Below, piece after piece: positions 9,246-58,460 of a stretch of 64,000 bases of DNA (positions are counted from its first letter, which is position 1; every line of letters starts with the position of its first letter). This DNA is from Clostridium sp. (GTDB taxonomy: Bacteria > Bacillota > Clostridia > Clostridiales > Clostridiaceae), in assembly GCA_029851835.1 (NCBI GenBank), contig JARKVD010000031.1, forward strand, positions 62,001 to 126,000, in the 5' to 3' direction. Both the position numbers and the translations under genes were made by a program. The notes under the pieces are model-generated. The model worked only from the letters and a program-made list of their open reading frames with translations. It was not told where the DNA came from and made no database searches.

Positions 9246-9580
9246 CCCTCAATTCATTATTATTAACCTTAATTATATATCCTTTATTATCCATTTCAAC
9301 CTTTTTGTTCGATTTATTTTCATTAACCTGTTTCATTTAAAATACATACTTTAAACTATATATCTTTACTCTCTATAAAATTCATATTACTATGAATATA
9401 AATATAAAAACATCCTATAATTATAATGCATACATTTTTTATTTTATAAGTGAGAGACTAACTTTATGATTTATGTTCTCACACTTACTCTTTTAAAGCT
9501 CCTTCAGACAATTATACGTGGAGTTTCCTTAATTATTATTAAAGCATACTTATGCTAGCCTTCTATAAAGGAGTGATATT
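9246..9580. other. intergenic region between divergent genes, with repeat copy A
   Basis: This stretch of about 335 bases separates the BrkB-like gene and the nitrilase gene, which face away from each other. Apart from one copy of the dispersed repeat (9446-9532) and the AAGGAG ribosome binding site of the nitrilase gene, I see only AT-rich sequence with no clear ORF. Confidence 0.6.
9446..9532 (+). repeat. dispersed TWAA-flanked structured repeat, copy A
   Basis: It begins ATAAGTGAGAG and ends GAGTTTCCTTAA, like the other copies. Stem 1 is degenerate here (CTTTATGATTTATG); stem 2 keeps CTCC...GGAG. It lies about 50 bases before the nitrilase start, in the 5' region of that gene. Confidence 0.75.
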
Positions 9581-24339: not shown

Positions 24340-24703
24340 TTATATTACTCACCTTCAATCTTTCATTTTTCACTTTTAATTTTTTATTTAATTATATATT
24401 ACCATAGGTACAATGGATGTAATCACAACTTTTTATTTTATTAAAACCATTAATAAGTGAGAGCGTAAATCTTTGATTTAGTTTCTCGAATCTACTCTTC
24501 GAGCACACCTTCCCATAAATATGCAAATGAGTTTCCTTAGAATTCACATCTGAACATAATCTATCAATACCAAGACGCCAACCTCTATATAATGTCATGA
24601 AACCATTTTCAATTGAGTGAATTTTTAGACATTGCAAAATATTCTAAAAAGGTTTAAACTAAATATGGGTAAATTAAACTTTAAATCATGGAGGATACGG
24701 GAT
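24340..24703. other. intergenic region with repeat copy B and long ctfA leader
   Basis: This is the gap between addB and ctfA, which face away from each other. It holds repeat copy B (24453-24540) and about 160 bases of AT-rich leader before ctfA. An 81-codon minus-strand frame through the repeat has no coding features. No riboswitch fold is evident to me. Confidence 0.55.
24453..24540 (+). repeat. dispersed TWAA-flanked structured repeat, copy B
   Basis: It starts ATAAGTGAGAG, holds stem 1 as TAAATC-TTT-GATTTA and the GAGCACACCTTCC segment, and ends GAGTTTCCTTAG. Stem 2 is weak in this copy. It lies between the divergent addB and ctfA genes. Confidence 0.8.
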
Positions 24704-25358: not shown

Positions 25359-26018
25359 ATGGATAAGAACATGATAAGAGAAGTAATTGCAAAAAGAGTT
25401 GCTCAAGAATTACACGATGGAGACGTAGTTAACTTAGGTATTGGTTTACCAACAATGGTTGCTAACTACCTTCCAGAAGGTATAGATATAACACTACAAT
25501 CTGAAAACGGATTTATAGGAATTGGAGCCGCTCCTGATCCTGGAGAGGAAGATAAGAACTTAGTTAACGCAGGTGGCCAGCATGTTACTGTTGTCCCTGG
25601 TGCTGCCTTCTTTGATTCTTCTATGTCCTTCACAATTATAAGGGGTGGACACGTTGACGCTACAGTTCTTGGAGCTCTACAAGTTGATCAAGAAGGAAAT
25701 CTAGCTAACTGGATGATACCTGGTAAAATGGTACCTGGAATGGGTGGAGCAATGGACCTAGTTGTAGGAGCAAAAAAAGTTATAGTTGCTATGGAGCATA
25801 CTCAAAAGGGTTCCCCAAAAATATTAAAGAAATGTACACTTCCTTTAACAGCTTCTCATCAAGTAAACTTAATTATCACAGAATTAGCTGTTTTAGAAGT
25901 TACTGCTGAAGGCTTAGTTCTTAAAGAATTAGGACCTGAGGCAACTATAGAAGAAGTAAAAGCTGCAACTGAAGCAGATATAATAGTACCAGAAAACGTT
26001 AAAAGAATGTCTCTATAA
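25359..26018 (+). CDS. ctfB: acetoacetate/butyrate-type CoA-transferase, beta subunit
   Basis: This is the catalytic subunit, 219 residues. The Glu that forms the CoA thioester lies in [11 protein letters not shown], and [12 protein letters not shown] and [15 protein letters not shown] are family blocks. Its ribosome binding site AAGGGGG lies within the end of ctfA, so the pair is coupled. The stop codon TAA (26016-26018) forms part of the terminal ATAA of repeat copy C, so the element abuts the coding region directly. The last residues (ENVKRMSL) match the usual C-terminus, so the coding part does not seem changed. Confidence 0.93.
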
Positions 26019-26178
26019 GTGAACCTCCAAATTTTATATTTGGTTAAGGTGAACTTACTCCTTCGAAATGAATATGAGAAGGAGTTTCATTAAATGATGA
26101 TCTAAATCTTTGATTTAGTTACTTGAACTTACTATTTGAGCACTCCACCCAACGTACGTGATGTGGAGTTACCTTTAA
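26015..26178 (+). repeat. dispersed structured repeat, copy C (two tandem units)
   Basis: Unit 1 (26015-26093) begins ATAAGTGAACC at the ctfB stop codon, has stem 1 CCAAAT...ATTTGG, stem 2 ACTCCTTC...GAAGGAGT and ends TTTCATTAA. Unit 2 (to 26178) shares that TTAA and has stem 1 CTAAATC-TTT-GATTTAG. Its stem 2 is ACTCCAC...GTGGAGT, and it ends ACCTTTAA. The different but still paired arms of stem 2 in adjacent units are good evidence that pairing is conserved. Confidence 0.88.
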
Positions 26179-35794: not shown

Positions 35795-36080
35795 AAATAG
35801 TGTTATCCCTATGATGAGGACAGTACTTATGAACCTTATTTTCAGAGAGAAGGCATAGCAGCTGGAATTGCCTTTAAATAAATCATAACGAAAACCACCT
35901 CTGAGCGACTCTAATAAAGTCCGTTAACTACGTTATAGTTTTTAAAGTGGTCCTTTCACTTTTATTTTGATTTACTTTGAAATTTCTTCAAGAAAGTTAA
36001 TTTAATAGAAGGGACAATTTGGGTGGAACCACGGGTTATATCTCGTCCCTTTTCAATTGTGAAAAGTGACGGGTTTTTTT
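35795..36080 (+). promoter_or_regulatory. T-box leader of thrS (threonine specifier ACC)
   Basis: The T-box motif GGGTGGAACCACGGG (36021-36035) precedes a terminator stem (36044-36080: CGTCCCTTTTCA against TGAAAAGTGACG, then seven T). Stem I elements are visible upstream: GATGAGGACAGTAC near 35813, AGAGAGAAGGC and GCTGGAATTGCC near 35845-35872. An ACC threonine codon lies in CGAAAACCACCTCTGAG near 35894, and CTCTGAG follows as expected. Uncharged tRNA-Thr should stabilise the antiterminator and switch on thrS. Two overlapping ACC triplets make the exact specifier register uncertain. Confidence 0.92.
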
Positions 36081-36302
36081 ATTTAATAAACATTTATAAT
36101 CAATTTAGAATTGTGGATAAAATTTATTTGGAATTTCTTTAATTGAAGATTTGCTCTAAGTAATTTTCAATTTGCCAATTCTTCATTAAAAGCAAATAAA
36201 AGTTTCTCCGAAGACACTGATGAGAAACATCTATAATTCTTAATTTAATTAAAATCAACATGAAATCACCTGTACCCTTTGGGTATAGATTTTGATTATC
36301 AT
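36081..36302 (+). other. unusual long leader between T-box terminator and thrS
   Basis: This stretch lies downstream of the T-box terminator and is still untranslated. It holds a hairpin GTTTCTC...GAGAAAC (36202-36230 region), and another, TACCC-TTT-GGGTA with outer AAATC/GATTT, just before repeat copy E. Parts of it resemble 45470-45570, suggesting a second, more diverged repeat family. Confidence 0.5.
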
Positions 36303-36431
36303 TTAAGGAAACTCCTTCTCAAAAACAGTGGAAGGAGTGCTCCACTGAGTAAGTTCCACTTACAAAATCAAAGATTTTGAGTGTGACTTAACTTCACATT
36401 TACCAAATCGTAGATTTGGATGATCACTTAA
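36303..36431 (-). repeat. dispersed structured repeat, copy E (long form) in the thrS leader
   Basis: This is the only copy in minus orientation, flanked by TTAA on both sides. Read on the minus strand it has TTAAGTGATC, stem 1a CCAAATC-TAC-GATTTGG, stem 1b AAAATC-TTT-GATTTT, stem 2 ACTCCTTC...GAAGGAGT and GTTTCCTTAA. It ends next to the thrS ribosome binding site (AGAAGGGAG), 18 bases before the start codon. Confidence 0.9.
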
Positions 36432-36449
36432 TAGAAGGGAGAATTTAAA

Positions 36450-38423: not shown

Positions 38424-39266
38424 TTATAGCTTTTCAGCATATTTCTTTTCAAAATAATGAACTACCTCATACATTAAGTATGCTATTACTGCTAGGACAA
38501 CTACACTCATCATTACCATATCTAGCTGTGCAACCTGTCCACCATAAACAATTAAGAAGCCTAACCCCTTCTTAGCGACTAAAAATTCTCCCATTATTAC
38601 TCCTACCCATGATAATCCAACACTTATCTTAAGTGCTGAAATAAGGGTTGGGGTTGAAGATGGTATAATTAAATGAGTCAAAATTTTAAACTTTGAAGCT
38701 CCAAAAGTGTTTAGGAGCTTAATTTTATCCTCTTCAACTTCTCTAAAACCGGAAAGCACACTTATTATTGTTGATATTACCGATATTAATAGAGCCATTA
38801 TGATAATTGCCTTCATTCCATTTCCTGCCCAGAATATAATTATTGGTCCAAGAGCTACCTTTGGTAATGCATTTAAAACTACAACATAAGGATCTAAAAC
38901 CTTGCATAAAAAGTCTGACCACCAAAGCATTATTGCTATAACGACACCAATAAAAGTACCTAATGTAAATCCGATAATAGTCTCATAACAAGTTGTCATA
39001 ATATGCCCGACAATTGTACCTTCATTATAAAGCTTAACAAAACTCTTAATCATCCTTGTTGGAGTACTAGTCAAAAATGGATCTATTATTTTTAAATCTC
39101 CAAGTATCTCCCACAATGCAAAAAAAGCGACTAATATAAGCATTCTTGTTATTATAATACTACTTCTTCTTCTTTTAACACTTCTTAAAAATTCCTCATG
39201 CTCTTTGCTTACAGTTACTTCTTCTATATTAGCTAAAGCTGTTTCTTTCATCTTACTTTTCTTCAT
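38424..39266 (-). CDS. Ssu/Tau-type ABC importer permease
   Basis: This is the membrane subunit of a nitrate/sulfonate/taurine-type importer, 280 residues, with about six membrane segments and the EAA loop (NTFGASKFKILTHLIIPSS). I place the start at the ATG at 39266 (MKKSKMKETALANIEE), which follows GGAAGGAGATGG; an upstream in-frame ATG would add nine residues and overlaps that site. The start overlaps the ATPase stop, so the two genes are coupled. Related systems import sulfonates, taurine, thiamine precursors or riboflavin; the substrate is not clear here. Confidence 0.9.
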   Translation of the reverse strand: MKKSKMKETALANIEEVTVSKEHEEFLRSVKRRRSSIIITRMLILVAFFALWEILGDLKIIDPFLTSTPTRMIKSFVKLYNEGTIVGHIMTTCYETIIGFTLGTFIGVVIAIMLWWSDFLCKVLDPYVVVLNALPKVALGPIIIFWAGNGMKAIIIMALLISVISTIISVLSGFREVEEDKIKLLNTFGASKFKILTHLIIPSSTPTLISALKISVGLSWVGVIMGEFLVAKKGLGFLIVYGGQVAQLDMVMMSVVVLAVIAYLMYEVVHYFEKKYAEKL

Positions 39267-40023
39267 TGTAATCCATCTCCTTCCAAATATCATTGAAGTA
39301 AATTCTAAATTTACTATGCTCTCTGCACTTTAAAGGAGTTAGCTTATCACATTCGAAGTCCACACTTACAATTTTCTTAATTACAGCTGGTCTTCTTGAA
39401 AGAACTATAATCCTCGATGACATAGATACCGCTTCCGAAATATCATGTGTTACCATTATGGCAGTTTTCCCTTCTCTTTTGATAATATCGAATATTTCAT
39501 CACTAACATTAAGTCTTGTTTGATAATCTAATGCAGAAAATGGTTCATCAAGGATTAAAACCTCTGGGTTTAGCGCCAATGTCCTAATCAAGGCAACCCT
39601 TTGTCTCATTCCACCAGAAAGCTGCTTTGGATAATGATTTCTAAACTCCCATAAATTATAGTTATTTAAAAGAGCTTCTATTTTTTCCTTTGCTTCCTCA
39701 TTCAACATTTTCTTAATTTTTAATCCTAAACAAACATTATCCCACACTGTAAGCCACTCAAAGAGCTGGTCCTTTTGAAACATGTATCCTAGTTTACTTG
39801 AATATCCACTTTGAAGTTCTCCATCAATAAAAATTTCACCTGATGATGGTTTAATCAGTCCTGCAATAATATTTAATAAGGTTGATTTTCCACAACCTGA
39901 AGGTCCTACAATACTAACAAATTCTCCCGCCTCAACTTCAAAAGTAATATCTTTCAAGGCCATTGTTTCGGCAATAAGAGTATGATAATTCATATAGATA
40001 TTCTTAACTTCTACTTTGCTCAT
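39253..40023 (-). CDS. Ssu/Tau-type ABC importer ATPase
   Basis: This ATPase has 256 residues. Motifs are Walker A (IVGPSGCGKSTLLNIIAGL), Q loop (LGYMFQKDQLFEW), signature (QLSGGMRQRVALIRTLA), Walker B (VLILDEPFSALD) and H loop (TAIMVTHDISEAV). The GMRQR form of the signature and the Q-loop match the SsuB/TauB/NrtD branch. It is separated from the binding-protein gene by 248 bases holding an interrupted terminator, so it may be expressed less than the binding protein. Confidence 0.93.
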   Translation of the reverse strand: MSKVEVKNIYMNYHTLIAETMALKDITFEVEAGEFVSIVGPSGCGKSTLLNIIAGLIKPSSGEIFIDGELQSGYSSKLGYMFQKDQLFEWLTVWDNVCLGLKIKKMLNEEAKEKIEALLNNYNLWEFRNHYPKQLSGGMRQRVALIRTLALNPEVLILDEPFSALDYQTRLNVSDEIFDIIKREGKTAIMVTHDISEAVSMSSRIIVLSRRPAVIKKIVSVDFECDKLTPLKCREHSKFRIYFNDIWKEMDYNEEK

Positions 40024-40150
40024 CTCTCCATCTCCATATCGTTTATACTATATTTTTTTCTTTACCTAGCTTCGTATTCTTTTTAACTCATAGGTATAAT
40101 TCAATATATGTTAATTACCTTCATGTTGATAATAAAACTTTAAAAAGAAA

Positions 40151-40250
40151 GAGCCTCATCTTTAAGTGAGTGCCCAAATCTTTGATTTGGTCTACACGAA
40201 CTTACTCCTTTGAATGAATATTAAAAGGAGTTCCCTTAAAGATAAGGCTC
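40151..40250 (-). terminator. intrinsic terminator split by an inserted repeat
   Basis: On the minus strand, GAGCCTTATCT (ending at 40240) and AGATGAGGCTC (starting at 40161) are fully complementary with one G-U pair, and TTTCTTTTT follows. Between them lies TTAA, a 70-base element and TTAA. Removing the element and one TTAA restores an 11-bp stem with a TTAA tetraloop. It lies between the binding-protein and ATPase genes of the importer, so it would set their ratio. Confidence 0.9.
40162..40239 (+). repeat. dispersed structured repeat, copy F (short form, inside terminator)
   Basis: Flanked by TTAA at 40162-40165 and 40236-40239, with a 70-base core beginning GTGAGTG and ending AGTTCCC. Stem 1 is CCAAATC-TTT-GATTTGG; stem 2 is ACTCCTTT...AAAGGAGT. 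The host terminator arms on both sides allow the empty site to be reconstructed exactly. Confidence 0.93.
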
Positions 40251-40271: not shown

Positions 40272-41297
40272 TTATTTTATTGCTTCTTTACTGATAGTAG
40301 TATCAACAATTTCATCAAATGGTGGTCTTTTTGTAATAAGCTCTTTATCATAAGCTTGAATTATATCCATTAATCTATTAATATCCTCTTCACTTACAAC
40401 AGGAGTACTTGCATAGGCTTCAATTTTCCTATAGTTGCCTACTACTGTAGAAATTATTTCTTCATCTGTGCCTTCAAAGAATTCCTTAATAACTCCTGCT
40501 ACTGTTGCGTCATCATTTTCCATTACCCAGTCTTGTCCCTTTTGAATAGCTCTAACGAACCTTACCAAAAGATCTTTATTGTCTTTAATATAAGAATCTA
40601 AAGCATAGAAACATGTATATGGTAGATTTCCTGCACTCTCTCCAATTGAGGCTACTATTTGACCATTAACCTCATTTGCAATAACTGTTGCACTTGGCTC
40701 AAAAAGTGCTGCATAATCACCAGTTCCACCTAAAAAAGCTGCTGGAACAGCATCGAAAGAAATATTGGTGATTAGCTCAATATCCTTATCCTTGTTAATT
40801 TCCTTTTGAGCTAAAACATATTCTAAAGCCATCTCTGGCATTCCACCCGGTCTTCCTCCAATTAATTTTTTTCCTTTAATATCTTCCCATGAAAAATTGT
40901 TGTGTTCCTCTTTTGCAACTAAGAAAGTACCATCCTTTTGTGTTAACTGAGCAAATACCTTCGGTAAATCATCTCTACCTTGATTATAGATATAAATAAC
41001 TTGTTCTGGTCCTGAAAAACCAATGTCAACATTTCCACTAATAAGTTGCTGCATTGTTTTATCTGCACCTTGTCCTGTCGTTAATTCAACCTTAATTCCC
41101 TCTTCTTCGAAGAAGCCCTGGCTAATTGCCGCATACATTGGAGCATAGAAAATCGACCTTGCTACTTCATTCACTTTAACTGTAGTTATCTCATTATTGT
41201 CCTTAGCACTATTATCCTTACTACACCCTGCAAACATACCTAGAGTTAAAACCATAGACACTACGGCACCAATAAGCTTTAATGTGTTTTTTTTCAT
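40272..41297 (-). CDS. Ssu/Tau-type ABC importer binding lipoprotein
   Basis: This is the extracellular substrate-binding protein, 341 residues, anchored as a lipoprotein: the signal sequence ends in LGMFAGC with lipobox Cys, followed by a Ser/Asp/Asn linker. The mature part has NMT1/SsuA-like blocks (IFYAPMYAAISQGFFEEEGI, LTTGQGADKTMQQLISGNVD, IGGRPGGMPEMALEYVL). The Gly-Pro-Glu site (FSGPEQVIYIYNQG) resembles binding proteins for pyrimidine or sulfonate compounds, but no specific ligand can be set. It is the first gene of the importer unit. AGGAGGAAGTT precedes the ATG. I see no TPP riboswitch upstream. Confidence 0.9.
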   Translation of the reverse strand: MKKNTLKLIGAVVSMVLTLGMFAGCSKDNSAKDNNEITTVKVNEVARSIFYAPMYAAISQGFFEEEGIKVELTTGQGADKTMQQLISGNVDIGFSGPEQVIYIYNQGRDDLPKVFAQLTQKDGTFLVAKEEHNNFSWEDIKGKKLIGGRPGGMPEMALEYVLAQKEINKDKDIELITNISFDAVPAAFLGGTGDYAALFEPSATVIANEVNGQIVASIGESAGNLPYTCFYALDSYIKDNKDLLVRFVRAIQKGQDWVMENDDATVAGVIKEFFEGTDEEIISTVVGNYRKIEAYASTPVVSEEDINRLMDIIQAYDKELITKRPPFDEIVDTTISKEAIK

Positions 41298-45445: not shown

Positions 45446-45574
45446 TGTAAAATGTAGAATGATTGATGAAATTCCTTGGGAATTTCTTTCGATATATAAA
45501 ATTAAAATTTCTCTGAACAAAGTGAGGCGAAATATCTTAAATTCTTAATTCTACATTCCATAATTCTTAATTAA

Positions 45575-45616
45575 ATAATAAAATCCCATGATTCACATCA
45601 TGGGATTTTATTATTT
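45575..45616 (-). terminator. intrinsic terminator after permease 1
   Basis: AATAATAAAATCCCATGAT pairs with ATCATGGGATTTTATTATT around a 4-base loop. It is nearly identical to the terminator of permease 2 at 47427. Confidence 0.93.
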
Positions 45617-45643
45617 ATCTTATAAATTTATTTTACAAATATA

Positions 45644-47041
45644 TTAAATATCAAGTCCTGCTGACTTTCTAAGCTCATCTATGTTTTTTGCTTGCTTATT
45701 CTTTTGCATCATCATGTATACATAAACTGGAATTCCTACAAGCATTAGAATAAATCCATACATTACTACTTCTGCACCTGTTCCATAGATTGCATAAATT
45801 GAATATGCAAAAGCTAATAAAGAGAAGAAGGAACTTTTTAAGAAATTTATTAAACTGAAATCCTTTGATCTCTTACAAAGTAACACTATTTCTGCAGCAG
45901 CAGTAAATGAATATGCTGGCAGGAAAGATAATGTTGCAAGAAGAATCATAAAATCAAATACACTTTGTAATGAGCCAACATAGTTCATTAATAGAAGTAC
46001 ATTCATACAAACTCCATTAATTATCAATGCTGCTACTGGTGTATTATATTTAGGATTTACCTTCTTAAATATCTTAGGGAATAAACCATCTTCTGCCGCA
46101 CCAACTGCGCATCTAGCTGTAGTTAAGAACCAGCCACAAGCTGCTCCTAATGTTGATATTATAGCTCCAATAGCTATAAATGGTCCACCCCAGCTTCCAC
46201 CTGTTACTGCATCTATAATATCCGCCATTGGTGCATTTGAATTAGCTAAATTTGCTTGATCCATAGCGCCCATTGCAGCAATACTTATGATAATGTATAT
46301 GATTCCAATTAATAGTATTCCATATACTGTACTTCTTCTAATATTCTTTTCTGGATTCTTAATTTCTCCGCCTGCAACTGTTGCACTTTCAAGTCCAACA
46401 AAGGCCCATAAAGCAATTGCAATACCTGCTGGCAATGTTCCCATACCTGAAACCTCTGGATCAGAAACTGTACTCATGAAGCTTGGATTAAAATTAACAA
46501 ATGCTACAAAAATAAACACAACTAATACTGCTACTTTTAAAACTGTAGATACAACACCAATCTTTCCAACATGCTTTACACTCATGATATTTACAATAGT
46601 AAATATCCAAATAACTGCTGAACAGATTAAAACTGCACACATTGGATTATTGGCACCTGGGAAAAAGTAAGTAAAATAACTCATAAATGCTGTAATTATT
46701 GCATCATTTCCTACCCATGATCCAATCCAGAAAGACCATGCAATTAAAAATCCTGCAAAATCACCAAATGCTGCTCTTGTATAAACTATAGGACCCCCTG
46801 TTTTAGGCATTTTTGACCCTAAATTTGCAAAACTAAGGGCAATAAGTAATGAACCAACTGATGTTAAAATCCATGCCAATATCGCTACTTTAGGGTTAGT
46901 TGCTCTCGCCATACTTCCTGGTGACATAAAAACTCCCGAGCCTATTACATTACCAACTACTATTGCCGTTGCTGCCCAAAGTCCTAACTCCCTCTTAAGT
47001 TCTCCGCCATCCTTCATAATTTGACTACTCTTCTTAGCCAT
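45644..47041 (-). CDS. APC family amino-acid permease (paralog 1)
   Basis: This is a 465-residue membrane transporter of the amino acid-polyamine-organocation superfamily, with about 12 membrane segments. The first helix has AIVVGNVIGSGVFMSPGSMA, the sodium- or substrate-binding unwound region typical of LAT/APC members, and helix 6 has IALWAFVGLESATVAGGEIK. I start at the ATG at 47041 (MAKKSSQIM), after AGGAG; a GTG three codons upstream overlaps the site. It is paired with a close copy 450 bases upstream. An exchanger role (for example arginine/ornithine or glutamate/GABA) is possible but not decidable. Confidence 0.92.
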   Translation of the reverse strand: MAKKSSQIMKDGGELKRELGLWAATAIVVGNVIGSGVFMSPGSMARATNPKVAILAWILTSVGSLLIALSFANLGSKMPKTGGPIVYTRAAFGDFAGFLIAWSFWIGSWVGNDAIITAFMSYFTYFFPGANNPMCAVLICSAVIWIFTIVNIMSVKHVGKIGVVSTVLKVAVLVVFIFVAFVNFNPSFMSTVSDPEVSGMGTLPAGIAIALWAFVGLESATVAGGEIKNPEKNIRRSTVYGILLIGIIYIIISIAAMGAMDQANLANSNAPMADIIDAVTGGSWGGPFIAIGAIISTLGAACGWFLTTARCAVGAAEDGLFPKIFKKVNPKYNTPVAALIINGVCMNVLLLMNYVGSLQSVFDFMILLATLSFLPAYSFTAAAEIVLLCKRSKDFSLINFLKSSFFSLLAFAYSIYAIYGTGAEVVMYGFILMLVGIPVYVYMMMQKNKQAKNIDELRKSAGLDI

Positions 47042-47083
47042 AATCCCCACTCCTACTTAAAATAATTAATATCGACGACTCCA

Positions 47084-47108
47084 GATACTGATTTTTCTGA
47101 TCAGTATC
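47084..47108. promoter_or_regulatory. perfect 9-bp inverted repeat upstream of permease 1
   Basis: GATACTGAT-TTTTCTG-ATCAGTATC lies 43 bases before the start codon. It could be an operator or a leader hairpin; there is no T-run for a terminator. Confidence 0.5.
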
Positions 47109-47426
47109 AAATAAAATAGAACAACTTATAAATTACTTAATTTTTTTGTTATTTTTCCCCGTATCTACCACCTTCAAATTAGCAATATTTGTTAATTCTT
47201 CTACACAACTATTATATCACTTTAAATTATACTTTGGATATATATTATTTTTACTTTTTTATCAAATAATAAAAATTTCTAACCGCTTTTAACCTTCTGA
47301 TTTGCAACTCTCACAATATCATTTGCAAATATGAATATACCAAATTTCAGTAAAACCATAAATTCCCTTATACCTTTGGACAATTATTCTCTAATTCTCA
47401 ATTCTACATTCCATAATTCTTAATTA

Positions 47427-47467
47427 AATAATAAATCCCATGATTAACATCATGGGATTTATTATTT
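47427..47467 (-). terminator. intrinsic terminator after permease 2
   Basis: AATAATAAATCCCATGAT pairs with ATCATGGGATTTATTATT. It shares sequence and flanks with the permease 1 terminator. Confidence 0.93.
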
Positions 47468-47494
47468 ATCTTATAAGTTTATTTTACAAATATA

Positions 47495-48889
47495 TTAAAT
47501 ATTAAGTCCTGCTGACTTTCTTAATTCATCAATATTCTTAGTTTCTTTATTCTTCTGCATCATCATATATACATATATAGGTATTCCAAGGAGCATTAAA
47601 ATAAATCCATACATTACCACCTCTGCTCCAGTGCCATATATTGCATAAATTGAATATGCAAAAGCAATAAGTGAAAAGAATGAACTCTTTAAAAAGTTAA
47701 CTAGACTAAAGTCCTTTGACCTCTTACAAAGCAATACAATTTCAGCTGCTGCAGTAAAAGAATATGCGGGCAGGAAAGATAATGTTGCTAATGATATCAT
47801 AAAATCAAATACACTTTGAAGCGTTCCAACATAGTTCATTAATAAAAGCAAATTCATACATATAGCACTAATAATAAGAGAAGCTATCGGAGTGTTATAC
47901 TTTGGATTTACTCTCTTAAATATTTTAGGGAATAATCCATCCTCAGCTGCTCCAACTGCACTTCTTGCTGAGATTAATACCCATCCACATGCTGCACCTA
48001 AAGTTGATATAATGGCTCCGATTGCAACGAATGCTCCTCCCCATTTACCTCCAGTTGATGCATCTATAATCTTTGCCATTGGCGCATTAGAACTAGCAAG
48101 AGTTGCCTGATCTAAAGCCCCCATAGAAGCAATACATACACTTATATATATAACTCCTACAATTAGTATTCCAAATATTGTACTTATCTTGATATTCTTT
48201 TTAGGATTTTTTATTTCGCCGCCTGCAACAGTAGCACTCTCTAAACCAACAAATGCCCATAAAGCTACAGCAATTGCAGCTGGCAATGTTTCTACCCCAG
48301 CAACCTGTGGACTAGAAATAGTATTCATAAAGCTTGGATCAAAGTTTAAAAGTGCAACAACAATGAATACTCCCAAAACTGCAACTTTTAATATAATTGA
48401 TACCACTCCAATCTTTCCAACATATTTTACCCCAATAATATTTATAAAAGTAAATATCCATACTACTACAGAAGATATTATAAATGCCCACATTGGATTA
48501 TTAGCAGCTGGTACAAAATACGTAAGGTAACTCATAAATGCTGTAATTATTGCACTAATCCCTACCCATGACCCAATCCAGAATGTCCATGCTATTAAGA
48601 ATCCTGCAAAATCACCAAAGGCAGCTCTTGTATATACTATAGGTCCACCTGTTTTGGGCATCTTTGAGCCTAAATTAGCAAAACTAAGAGCAATGAATAG
48701 TGAACCAATCATAGTTAAAATCCATGCTAATATAGCTACCTTAGGATTGGTAACTCTAGCAAAACTTGCTGGTGACATAAATATTGCAGAACCTATTATA
48801 TTTCCCACAACTATAGCCGTTGCTGACCAAACCCCTAATTCCCTCTTAAGCTCCCCCCCATCTTTCATAATCTGATTATTCTTATCCAT
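47495..48889 (-). CDS. APC family amino-acid permease (paralog 2)
   Basis: This 464-residue transporter is nearly collinear with permease 1; most helices are identical or differ by conservative changes (for example AIVVGNIIGSAIFMSPASFA against AIVVGNVIGSGVFMSPGSMA). The changes in helix 1 (SGV to SAI, GSMA to ASFA) fall in the substrate-binding unwound part, so specificity may differ. AGGAGTG precedes the ATG. With permease 1 it forms a tandem duplication that includes the terminators. Confidence 0.92.
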   Translation of the reverse strand: MDKNNQIMKDGGELKRELGVWSATAIVVGNIIGSAIFMSPASFARVTNPKVAILAWILTMIGSLFIALSFANLGSKMPKTGGPIVYTRAAFGDFAGFLIAWTFWIGSWVGISAIITAFMSYLTYFVPAANNPMWAFIISSVVVWIFTFINIIGVKYVGKIGVVSIILKVAVLGVFIVVALLNFDPSFMNTISSPQVAGVETLPAAIAVALWAFVGLESATVAGGEIKNPKKNIKISTIFGILIVGVIYISVCIASMGALDQATLASSNAPMAKIIDASTGGKWGGAFVAIGAIISTLGAACGWVLISARSAVGAAEDGLFPKIFKRVNPKYNTPIASLIISAICMNLLLLMNYVGTLQSVFDFMISLATLSFLPAYSFTAAAEIVLLCKRSKDFSLVNFLKSSFFSLIAFAYSIYAIYGTGAEVVMYGFILMLLGIPIYVYMMMQKNKETKNIDELRKSAGLNI

Positions 48890-54448: not shown

Positions 54449-56809
54449 ATGTTAGTAAGAAAGCCAAATGAAACTAACTCACAAATTATTGATAGTGATG
54501 AACACTTACATTTTGAAGATTTTCATATTTCTAACAACAATGAAATATCCTTACCATTTCAACCTGGACATAATGAAGAATCTAATGAAAATGAATCCTT
54601 AGAATGTTATGAACGCAACATAACAGAACAAGATGAATCTGAAGTTGACGAAAGAATATTTCCACCATTCTTTCCTCCTAGTGGTCCTTCAGGTCCCCCT
54701 ACATCAGGACCTCCTGGTGGTCCTCCAGGACAACCTGCGCCACCAAGACCTCCTGTGCCTGGAACGCCATCTAATCCTAATGCAGTTCCAGGTCCACCTC
54801 CTAACTTTACTCCACAACAAGCATCAACTCCTCAAGGCGTAAGTCCACTAGTTTCTCCTGGCTCCATAGCTCCATGTAGATTTCAATTTGTATATATATG
54901 GCAGACAAATGGAACCTCCTATTGGGCTTGGCTTACTAGAATCGATAGAACTACAGCTTCTGGCTTTAGATGGAATGGTCGTAGATGGGTTTTCTTTGGA
55001 GTTAATTTAAATAGAATCGCAGCCTTTGAATGCTTTGGACGTGACATAACAGAACAAGATGAATCCGAAGTTGACGAAAGAATATTTCCACCATTCTTTC
55101 CGCCTAGTGGTCCTTCAGGTCCACCTACATCAGGACCTCCTGGTGGTCCTCCAGGACAACCTGCGCCACCAAGACCTCCTGTGCCTGGAACGCCATCTAA
55201 TCATAATGCAGTTCCAGGTCCACCTCCTAACTTTACTCCACAACAAGCATCAACTCCTCAAGGCGTAATTCCACTAGTTTCTCCTGGCTCCATAGCTCCA
55301 TGTAGATTTCAATTTGTATATATATGGCAGACAAATGGCAATTCCTATTGGGCTTGGCTTACTAAAATCGATAGAACTACAGCTTCTGGCTTTAGATGGA
55401 ATGGTCGTAGATGGGTTTACTTTGGAGTTAATTTAAATAGAATCGCAGCTTTTGAATGCTTTGGACGTGACATAACAGAACAAGATGAATCTGAAGTTGA
55501 CGAAAGAGTATTTCCACCAGCCTTTCCTCCTAGTGGTCCTTCAGGTCCGCCTACACCAAGACCTCCTATACAGGGAGCGCCACCAAGACCCCCTATGCCT
55601 GGAGCGCCACCAAGACCCCCTATACCTGGAACACCACCAAGGCCTCCTATGCATGGAGCACCACCTAGACCTCCTATGCATGGAGCACCACCTAGACCTC
55701 CTAGCTTTACTCAACAACAACCAGGCATAAATCCACTAGTTTCTCCTGGCTCCATAGCTCCATGTAGATTTCAACTTATATATATATGGCAGACAAATGG
55801 TGCCTCCTATTGGGCTTGGCTTACTAGAATCGATAGAACTACAGCTTCCGGCTTTAGATGGAATGGTCGTAGATGGGTTTTCTTTGGAGTTAATTTAAAT
55901 AGAATCGCAGCGTTTGAATGCTTCGGACGAGATATATTTAGAAATGTAGATAATGCAGTAGAAAATATTCAAACTCAAACTTTAGCACCATCGGAATTTA
56001 ATATTGAATATCCTTTTATAAGTAATATGCAAAATGAAGATGTCGGGAATATAATTAATATGGAAATTATCGATACCTTAGATACTCTCTTACTAAACCA
56101 AGTTCTAGTTCCAGAAAAAATTAACTTTGAAAAGGTTCAAGGTGCCTATGAAATTCCTTTAAATGCTTATGGACTTCTTAGTATAGTAATGTCTTTAAGT
56201 ACCTTGGTAGAAGAAGAAGAAAGACCTCGTATAACCTTTGATTCCTTAACTGTAGATTTAAACACTGGAGAGGTATATGATTTTGATGACTTATTTAATT
56301 CTAAATCCGATTACAGAACTGCAATAAGTCAACTTGCTATGGATATAGCTAAGAAATTAAATGTAAAACTAGTAGTGCCATACGACGGAGTTACTGATAC
56401 ACAGAAATTCTATTTAACTCCAGATGAATTAGTTTTATATTATCAAGTTGATGAGTTTACTCCTGCTGACCAAGGTCTATTCCGAATCCCTATTCCTTAT
56501 AAATTACTAACTAACTACTTATATCCTGGAAGCCCTATCAATAAAATTCTTAATCCTTCTAATGTAATTCCTGTAAATCCTTCAACGGGAAACACCCAAA
56601 TTCCACTACCTGCTGAAGAAGGTGGAACTGCGATGGGTCCTGAATATCTTGGAACCTATACGGGTTTAGTTCCTGAAGAAGAAGGCGGTACTGCAATGAG
56701 CCCAGAATATTTGGGTACCTACACCGGAAAAGTACCTGAAACTGAAGGGTATCCTCCTAAAGGTCAACAATCTCCAGGTACCTCTGCACAGGAAACTCCA
56801 GAGAGGTAA
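54449..56809 (+). CDS. proline-rich three-repeat protein with DUF3298 domain
   Basis: This 786-residue protein begins with an acidic, soluble N-terminus (about 1-56) and no signal peptide. Three tandem units follow (about 57-198, 199-340 and 341-495). Each has an acidic lead (ITEQDESEVDER), a Pro/Gly-rich stretch (FPPSGPSGPPTSGPPGGP...) and an aromatic module of about 58 residues (CRFQFVYIWQTNG, SYWAWLTRIDRTTASGFRW, NLNRIAAFECF). Units 1 and 2 are nearly identical in DNA (period 426 bases); unit 3 has its own nine-residue Pro repeats. Residues about 520-700 match DUF3298/DUF4163 (ITFDSLTVDLNTGEVYDFDD), as in RsiV and PdaC tails. The tail repeats EEGGTAMxPEYLGTYTG twice. A spore or surface role is possible but not shown. 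Confidence 0.85.
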   Translation: MLVRKPNETNSQIIDSDEHLHFEDFHISNNNEISLPFQPGHNEESNENESLECYERNITEQDESEVDERIFPPFFPPSGPSGPPTSGPPGGPPGQPAPPRPPVPGTPSNPNAVPGPPPNFTPQQASTPQGVSPLVSPGSIAPCRFQFVYIWQTNGTSYWAWLTRIDRTTASGFRWNGRRWVFFGVNLNRIAAFECFGRDITEQDESEVDERIFPPFFPPSGPSGPPTSGPPGGPPGQPAPPRPPVPGTPSNHNAVPGPPPNFTPQQASTPQGVIPLVSPGSIAPCRFQFVYIWQTNGNSYWAWLTKIDRTTASGFRWNGRRWVYFGVNLNRIAAFECFGRDITEQDESEVDERVFPPAFPPSGPSGPPTPRPPIQGAPPRPPMPGAPPRPPIPGTPPRPPMHGAPPRPPMHGAPPRPPSFTQQQPGINPLVSPGSIAPCRFQLIYIWQTNGASYWAWLTRIDRTTASGFRWNGRRWVFFGVNLNRIAAFECFGRDIFRNVDNAVENIQTQTLAPSEFNIEYPFISNMQNEDVGNIINMEIIDTLDTLLLNQVLVPEKINFEKVQGAYEIPLNAYGLLSIVMSLSTLVEEEERPRITFDSLTVDLNTGEVYDFDDLFNSKSDYRTAISQLAMDIAKKLNVKLVVPYDGVTDTQKFYLTPDELVLYYQVDEFTPADQGLFRIPIPYKLLTNYLYPGSPINKILNPSNVIPVNPSTGNTQIPLPAEEGGTAMGPEYLGTYTGLVPEEEGGTAMSPEYLGTYTGKVPETEGYPPKGQQSPGTSAQETPER
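54617..55932 (+). repeat. three tandem in-frame DNA repeats (426-bp period)
   Basis: Unit 1 (54617-55042) and unit 2 (55043-55468) differ at only scattered bases; unit 3 (55469-55932) shares both ends but replaces the Pro/Gly-rich middle with 27-base subrepeats encoding GAPPRPPMP-like blocks. The frame is kept throughout, so copy number could change by recombination without breaking the gene. Confidence 0.9.
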
Positions 56810-58335: not shown

Positions 58336-58460
58336 TTAAGTGAACATCCAAATCTTTGATTTGGTAGTGGAACTTTCACTGCGTGCATCTTTGATTTAGT
58401 CACTGGACCTTACTCAGTAGAGCACTTCTTCCAACAAAGAAAGAAGGAGTTTCCTTATAA
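58336..58460 (+). repeat. dispersed structured repeat, copy G (long form)
   Basis: It starts TTAAGTGAACATCC and ends GTTTCCTTATAA. Stem 1a is CCAAATC-TTT-GATTTGG; a second, partial stem-1 block (CATCTTTGATTTAG) follows GAACTTTCACTGCGTG. Stem 2 is ACTTCTTC...GAAGGAGT with one G-U pair. It lies between the ABC operon end and its terminator. Confidence 0.9.

Follow-up and report, generated by a model that had tools for sequence, protein, structure and literature searches.

A modular hairpin repeat of the Clostridiaceae in the loop of a predicted terminator between ssuA- and ssuB-like genes

In a Clostridium sp., the arms of a predicted terminator between genes for an SsuA-like and an SsuB-like protein are held apart by a repeat unit with TTAA at each of its ends (Table 1). 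How did this unit come to lie there, and does the TTAA record the duplication of a transposase's target? We approached this question from the 64,000-nucleotide stretch of DNA around the locus (the window), from the 2.19-Mb assembly to which it belongs (G000) and from the genomes of relatives. The best explanation, which we consider probable, is that a modular palindromic intergenic repeat of the Clostridiaceae entered the terminator loop on the ssuA side, and that the TTAA is not a target duplication; our verdict is a REP-like palindromic intergenic repeat rather than a TTAA-targeted transposon. The gap is flanked by genes for an NMT1-type substrate-binding protein and an ABC ATPase, as had been assumed. 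Elsewhere in the window we noted long tandem repeats, nearly identical to one another, whose coding pattern is rich in proline and glycine and collagen-like (54584-55936), and two segments, separated by about 1.85 kb, that resemble each other (45535-47757; 83% over 300 nt) and suggest a duplicated gene.

Table 1. Positions of the terminator, the repeat copies and the neighbouring genes in the window.
Feature	Position	Strand	Evidence
5' arm of host terminator, GAGCCTTATCT	40240..40250	-	sequence and fold
3' arm of host terminator, AGATGAGGCTC	40151..40161	-	sequence and fold
T-rich tract of terminator, TTTCTTTTTA	40141..40150	-	sequence
Repeat unit including TTAA at each end (modules A and B)	40162..40239	-	covariance model R1 (built from copies that include this unit), 95.7 bits, E 2.7e-18 in window; dispersed copies <=90% identical
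Hairpin A, ACTCCTTT...AAAGGAGT, loop conserved across copies	40204..40231	-	fold; consensus structure with compensatory changes, 37 and 109 copies
Hairpin B, GTGT-AGA-CCAAATC-aaa-GATTTGG-GCAC, covarying 4-bp outer stem	40170..40197	-	fold; outer-stem pairing against shuffled
Second full-length copy in window; divergent unit at 26090-26176	26015..26093	-	model R1, 89.8 bits
Copy of longer subfamily (89 nt) plus lone B module to ~36433, between T-box leader and thrS	36303..36391	+	model R1, 56.8 bits; T-box 35802-36053
Copy of longer subfamily, upstream of start codon	63476..63563	-	model R1, 61.7 bits
Copy of longer subfamily	24453..24540	-	model R1, 49.1 bits
Composite copy	58336..58458	-	model R1, 42.2 bits
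Degenerate copy	9446..9532	-	model R1, 26.9 bits, E 0.0043
SsuA-like substrate-binding protein gene, upstream	40272..41297	-	PF09084/PF13379
SsuB-like ABC ATPase gene, downstream	39253..40023	-	PF00005
SsuC-like permease gene	38424..39293	-	PF00528

The architecture of the site is as originally predicted: the two arms pair on the minus strand over 11 bp, one of them a G-T pair; exactly 78 bases, namely TTAA, a 70-base core and TTAA, lie between them; and a T-run stands 3' of the second arm. Situated 3' of ssuA, this 11-bp, GC-containing stem with its TTTCTTTTT is a predicted intrinsic terminator by both sequence and fold. When the core and one TTAA are deleted in silico, the 11-bp hairpin closes on a TTAA loop (-17.0 kcal/mol). 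With the insert in place, the complete hairpin has a folding energy of -43.3 kcal/mol (z -6.5; 0 of 200 shuffles), and the predicted structure is a single long stem that encloses two inner hairpins. Furthermore, the flank-to-flank stem at this site scores 33.5, whereas shuffled flanks (1107 left-right flank pairs of clean copies) reach 23.5 at their 99.9th percentile and 31.5 at most; since it tops all 1107 shuffled pairs, the stem around the unit is not due to chance. Bearing in mind that the unit is paired with itself, and that its TTAAG/CTTAA ends lengthen the host stem, we propose that the terminator probably still forms around the insert, as a three-way structure; folding agrees in this respect with the earlier expectation that the outer stem might survive the element.

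The 70-base core had been taken for a copy of a dispersed repeat, and both blastn and a covariance model bear this out: the family's units are modular, contain two hairpins and are 70 to 78 bases long. We found 64 places by blastn in G000 and at least 150 copies there with the covariance model, which was built from 37 copies, the terminator-loop copy among them, and whose E-values are rough. The window itself yields nine matches to the model at E below 0.005, some of which are partial or degenerate. Within the genus, the model matched 58 times in G006 and 36 times in G005, and found zero copies in four of seven genomes; across the Clostridiaceae, there were matches at E <= 1e-5 in 106 of 207 genomes and 22 of 46 genera, counted from at most the best 22 matches per genome. 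Phages, plasmids and viral contigs yielded no match to the family by blastn or to one exact pattern. Rfam holds no curated RNA family that the element matches at the gathering threshold. The copies are mostly intergenic and lie next to genes in both orientations; being numerous, dispersed and structured as well, they have the generic properties of REP-like repeats. No pair among the dispersed G000 copies that we compared exceeds 92% identity, and the nearest of them to the terminator-loop unit is only 90% identical, which argues that the latter is neither a fresh insertion nor a recent footprint. In G006, near-identical dispersed composite units (L129, L132, L135 and L067), bounded on the left by TTAGGAAA and on the right by CTTACTTA, suggest recent spread of composite units in that genome.

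Hairpin A has the consensus GAAACTCCTTC...GAAGGAGT (also given as ACTCCTTC...GAAGGAGT), with a largely conserved loop. Hairpin B is laid out as N4, a bulge of two or three bases (TTA, TAG or AGA), CCAAATC, three bases, GATTTGG and N4'; with its edges, hairpin B reads AAGTTC-N4-TAR-CCAAATC...GATTTGG-N4'-TCACTTA, and the family unit consists of hairpin A joined to it. Among 106 copies the N4 outer stem has 3.56 of four possible pairs, versus 2.33 +/- 0.06 when the right sides are shuffled, and 65 of these stems are perfect while comprising many different N4 sequences. Module B can stand by itself or in tandem, and an additional small hairpin marks a longer subfamily. The left and right edges of the family are approximately TWA[GT]GAAAC and CACTTA[A/T], respectively; some copies end in TTAAG...CTTAA, and the terminal inverted-repeat match averages 6.2 of 14 positions over 109 copies, a raw mean given with no null. 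At L130, L133, L138, L147 and L150 (G005 and G006), the A and B units alternate with yet another module, CTCGCTTTGCTC, which may or may not be accompanied by GTTGCTAAAGCAAC. In several genera, TATGGTAC(A/G)GTTC lies 3' of the right end of many copies (L067, L291-L293 and L298-L300), and is perhaps another module.

The original prediction saw in the two TTAA motifs a strict 4-bp target duplication; on this model a DDE-type transposase would have moved the unit, a non-autonomous transposon whose footprint is preserved at this site. The TTAA at each edge of the terminator copy accords with that account, as does the fact that the terminator of relatives lacks the element; so, too, does a pair of G006 and G005 loci (L266/L312) at which TTAA flanks both sides of a 216-base insert in G006, about 35 bases of which are non-element sequence and the left flank of which aligns poorly. 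The copies at large do not behave in this way. Across 56 copies with clean flanks, all from one genome, TTAA is the left 4-mer 14 times and the right 4-mer 34 times; it occupies both sides in eight copies, against 8.5 expected by independence, and identical left and right 4-mers are no commoner than in shuffles (p = 0.76). Nor did a duplication of any other kind emerge from a stricter set of 28 copies, scanned for lengths of 2-5 at several offsets: the smallest p-values were 0.02-0.05, which is the level of chance because of the many tests. Strict TTAA duplication by this family is not supported. Neither is the reconstructed empty site the proof for which it was taken: a segment AA-core-TT inserted between TT and AA, with no duplication, yields an identical empty site, so that the single ssu locus cannot decide the matter. 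The notion that TTAA points to the family's transposase goes the same way as the duplication, and no transposase was identified. We hypothesize instead that the TTAA at the unit's ends, which for the most part agrees with the ends of the family consensus, would be the family's own variable AT-rich edge where it meets a TTTAAA loop. Neighbouring units in arrays share a TTAA-like junction too, as tandem duplication explains. Taken together, these observations leave the DDE transposon highly improbable in our estimation.

The adjacent units of such arrays provide their own record of growth. In a comparison of explicit pairs of units, neighbours are on average 88% identical and non-neighbours 81% (permutation p < 1e-4); being more alike, the neighbours indicate that arrays grew by local duplication and not by repeated TTAA-directed insertion. 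At loci shared by G006 and G005, modules have been gained or lost at internal repeats, and there are deletions that end in repeats and leave stubs such as TAAGTGA; no clean single-copy pair of empty and filled sites with an unambiguous junction was recovered from the syntenic pairs of these two genomes.

Comparison of the ssuA-ssuB gap with relatives, in which an empty TTAA-loop terminator had been anticipated, gave a mixed outcome. G005 and G006, whose SsuA proteins are 71% and 70% identical to that of G000, do have a terminator without the element in the same gap; the exact TTAA-loop form, GAGCCTTATCTTTAAAGATGAGGCTC, was not found in the gap of these relatives, and the stems differ: that of G006, AAAGGAACATGTC.../...GACATATTCCTTT, is nearly identical in G005, and both are unlike the G000 stem. 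The tip of the G005 terminator, CTTTAGGATTTTAAAG, carries CTTTA...TTTAAAG, and CTTTA and TAAAG may have faced each other before insertion; the alignment of this tip is short and AT-rich, and the resemblance is only suggestive. A search for SsuA in further genome contigs returned a best match of 50% identity, too distant to serve as an empty site. Because two relatives have the terminator without the element, gain in this lineage is likely, as judged from these sequences. The converse, that G005 and G006 lost an element rather than the G000 lineage gaining one, draws on the loss of modules by between-repeat deletion at other loci, but neither relative retains a remnant in its terminator loop, whereas losses elsewhere leave stubs; we consider it unlikely. 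In the G006 gap (L033) there is also an extra insertion of more than 100 bases before ssuB, starting TTAAGTGAACTTAG, that is absent from G005 and is not recognised as an A/B unit.

We also considered whether stem-loops are a general target of the family, and rejected this candidate: the mean flank-stem score is 11.0, versus 10.5 for shuffled flanks, and only the terminator copy stands out. Just that one of the 56 clean copies lies clearly within a stem-loop, so the family does not target hairpin loops in general. There are, nonetheless, other hosts of this type. The loop of the first variable hairpin of a glmS ribozyme holds one or more repeat units at L142 (G005), as is shown directly by Rfam alignment, and the corresponding glmS segment adjoins sequence of the element at L144 (G006), L295 (G091) and L297 (G064). 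A repeat array lies between the T-box leader and thrS (35802-36433 in the window), with G005 and G006 copies at the same place. Hairpin and leader sites are probably tolerated, not sought.

The glmS loops, the positions after T-box leaders, the 21 copies that lie no more than 30 nt upstream of start codons and the compensated stems could be read differently, as a functional structured RNA or regulatory element that recurs in many leaders and terminators and is not mobile. Such an element would sit poorly with gene-adjacent copies in both orientations, with patchy presence in the genus and with tandem arrays; no shared function is apparent among the few adjacent genes that were read, and the excess of G-T pairs over A-C mismatches in the stems, a possible mark of selection on the RNA, is weak (41 versus 26). 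We therefore regard a non-mobile regulatory RNA as very unlikely.

If the repeat is mobile, what moves it? REP and IS200/IS605-type elements are intergenic hairpin units, tandem or composite, that make no target duplication. All of these traits, compensated stems included, would fit a REP/BIME-like element moved as single-stranded hairpin DNA by a Y1 (RAYT or IS200-type) transposase, and, like REP/BIME, the family consists of short intergenic palindromes that are arranged in tandem or as composites, conserve their structure and lack a target duplication. It differs in that Y1_Tnp (PF01797) is absent from two repeat-rich genomes of the clade, G000 (83% complete) and G006 (99% complete, 58 copies), and from repeat-rich G046, G052, G053, G057 and G067 as well, and is present in four congeners that are without the repeat; there is, moreover, no conserved GTAG foot, since only 4 of 109 copies have this motif at the base of hairpin B. 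Movement by a Y1 transposase accordingly seems quite improbable to us.

Other known systems offer partial parallels. Bacterial MITEs (Correia, RUP, ERIC, IS630- or IS5-derived) are small, non-coding, intergenic and present in many copies, as is this family, which differs in having no supported target duplication and no partner IS that we found; its terminal 14 nt match as inverted repeats at 6.2 positions on average. The STRR of cyanobacterial rnpB are short palindromic repeats that are tolerated in the hairpin tips of a functional RNA, as here; they differ in sequence and taxa, and the hosts here are a terminator and glmS ribozymes. In the literature on clostridial repeats, MITEs, TTAA and RAYT, we found a sole close precedent: the stem-loop repeat families Clop-1 of C. 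perfringens (93 bp, 44 copies) and Clot-1 of C. tetani (74 bp, 19 copies; Petrillo et al. 2008, PMC2267715). These, too, are clostridial, intergenic and stem-loop-containing, by a comparison of descriptions and not of sequences; the passages of that survey that we compared describe no modular A/B structure, compensated N4 stem or spread throughout the family. By the same comparison of descriptions, our family may be partly known already through Clop-1 and Clot-1. It is apparently an uncharacterised clostridial hairpin repeat, spread across the family and strongly compensated between its arms.

Returning to the REP-like palindromic repeat as our preferred reading, we infer that its units would be non-autonomous and would seldom spread, doing so in the form of hairpin DNA by means of a trans-acting enzyme or of template switching during replication; the switching could also keep the arms matched with no transposase at all, and loss would occur by deletion between repeats. 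A bolder version, which we put forward as improbable, is that the Clostridiaceae-wide hairpin unit spreads and grows with neither a Y1 nor a TTAA-duplicating transposase; one such route would be replication switching templated by the hairpin, in which one arm is copied onto the other. If this were true, such copying would explain how the N4 stem varies freely and yet stays paired, and functional RNAs (the terminator, the glmS ribozyme) would tolerate insertion into their loops, since each unit lengthens an existing stem. The present analysis removes a false lead, that of a TTAA-duplicating bacterial transposase; it also matters to those who annotate clostridial intergenic RNAs, terminators and riboswitches, who may misread these units as regulatory RNAs or as transposon scars.
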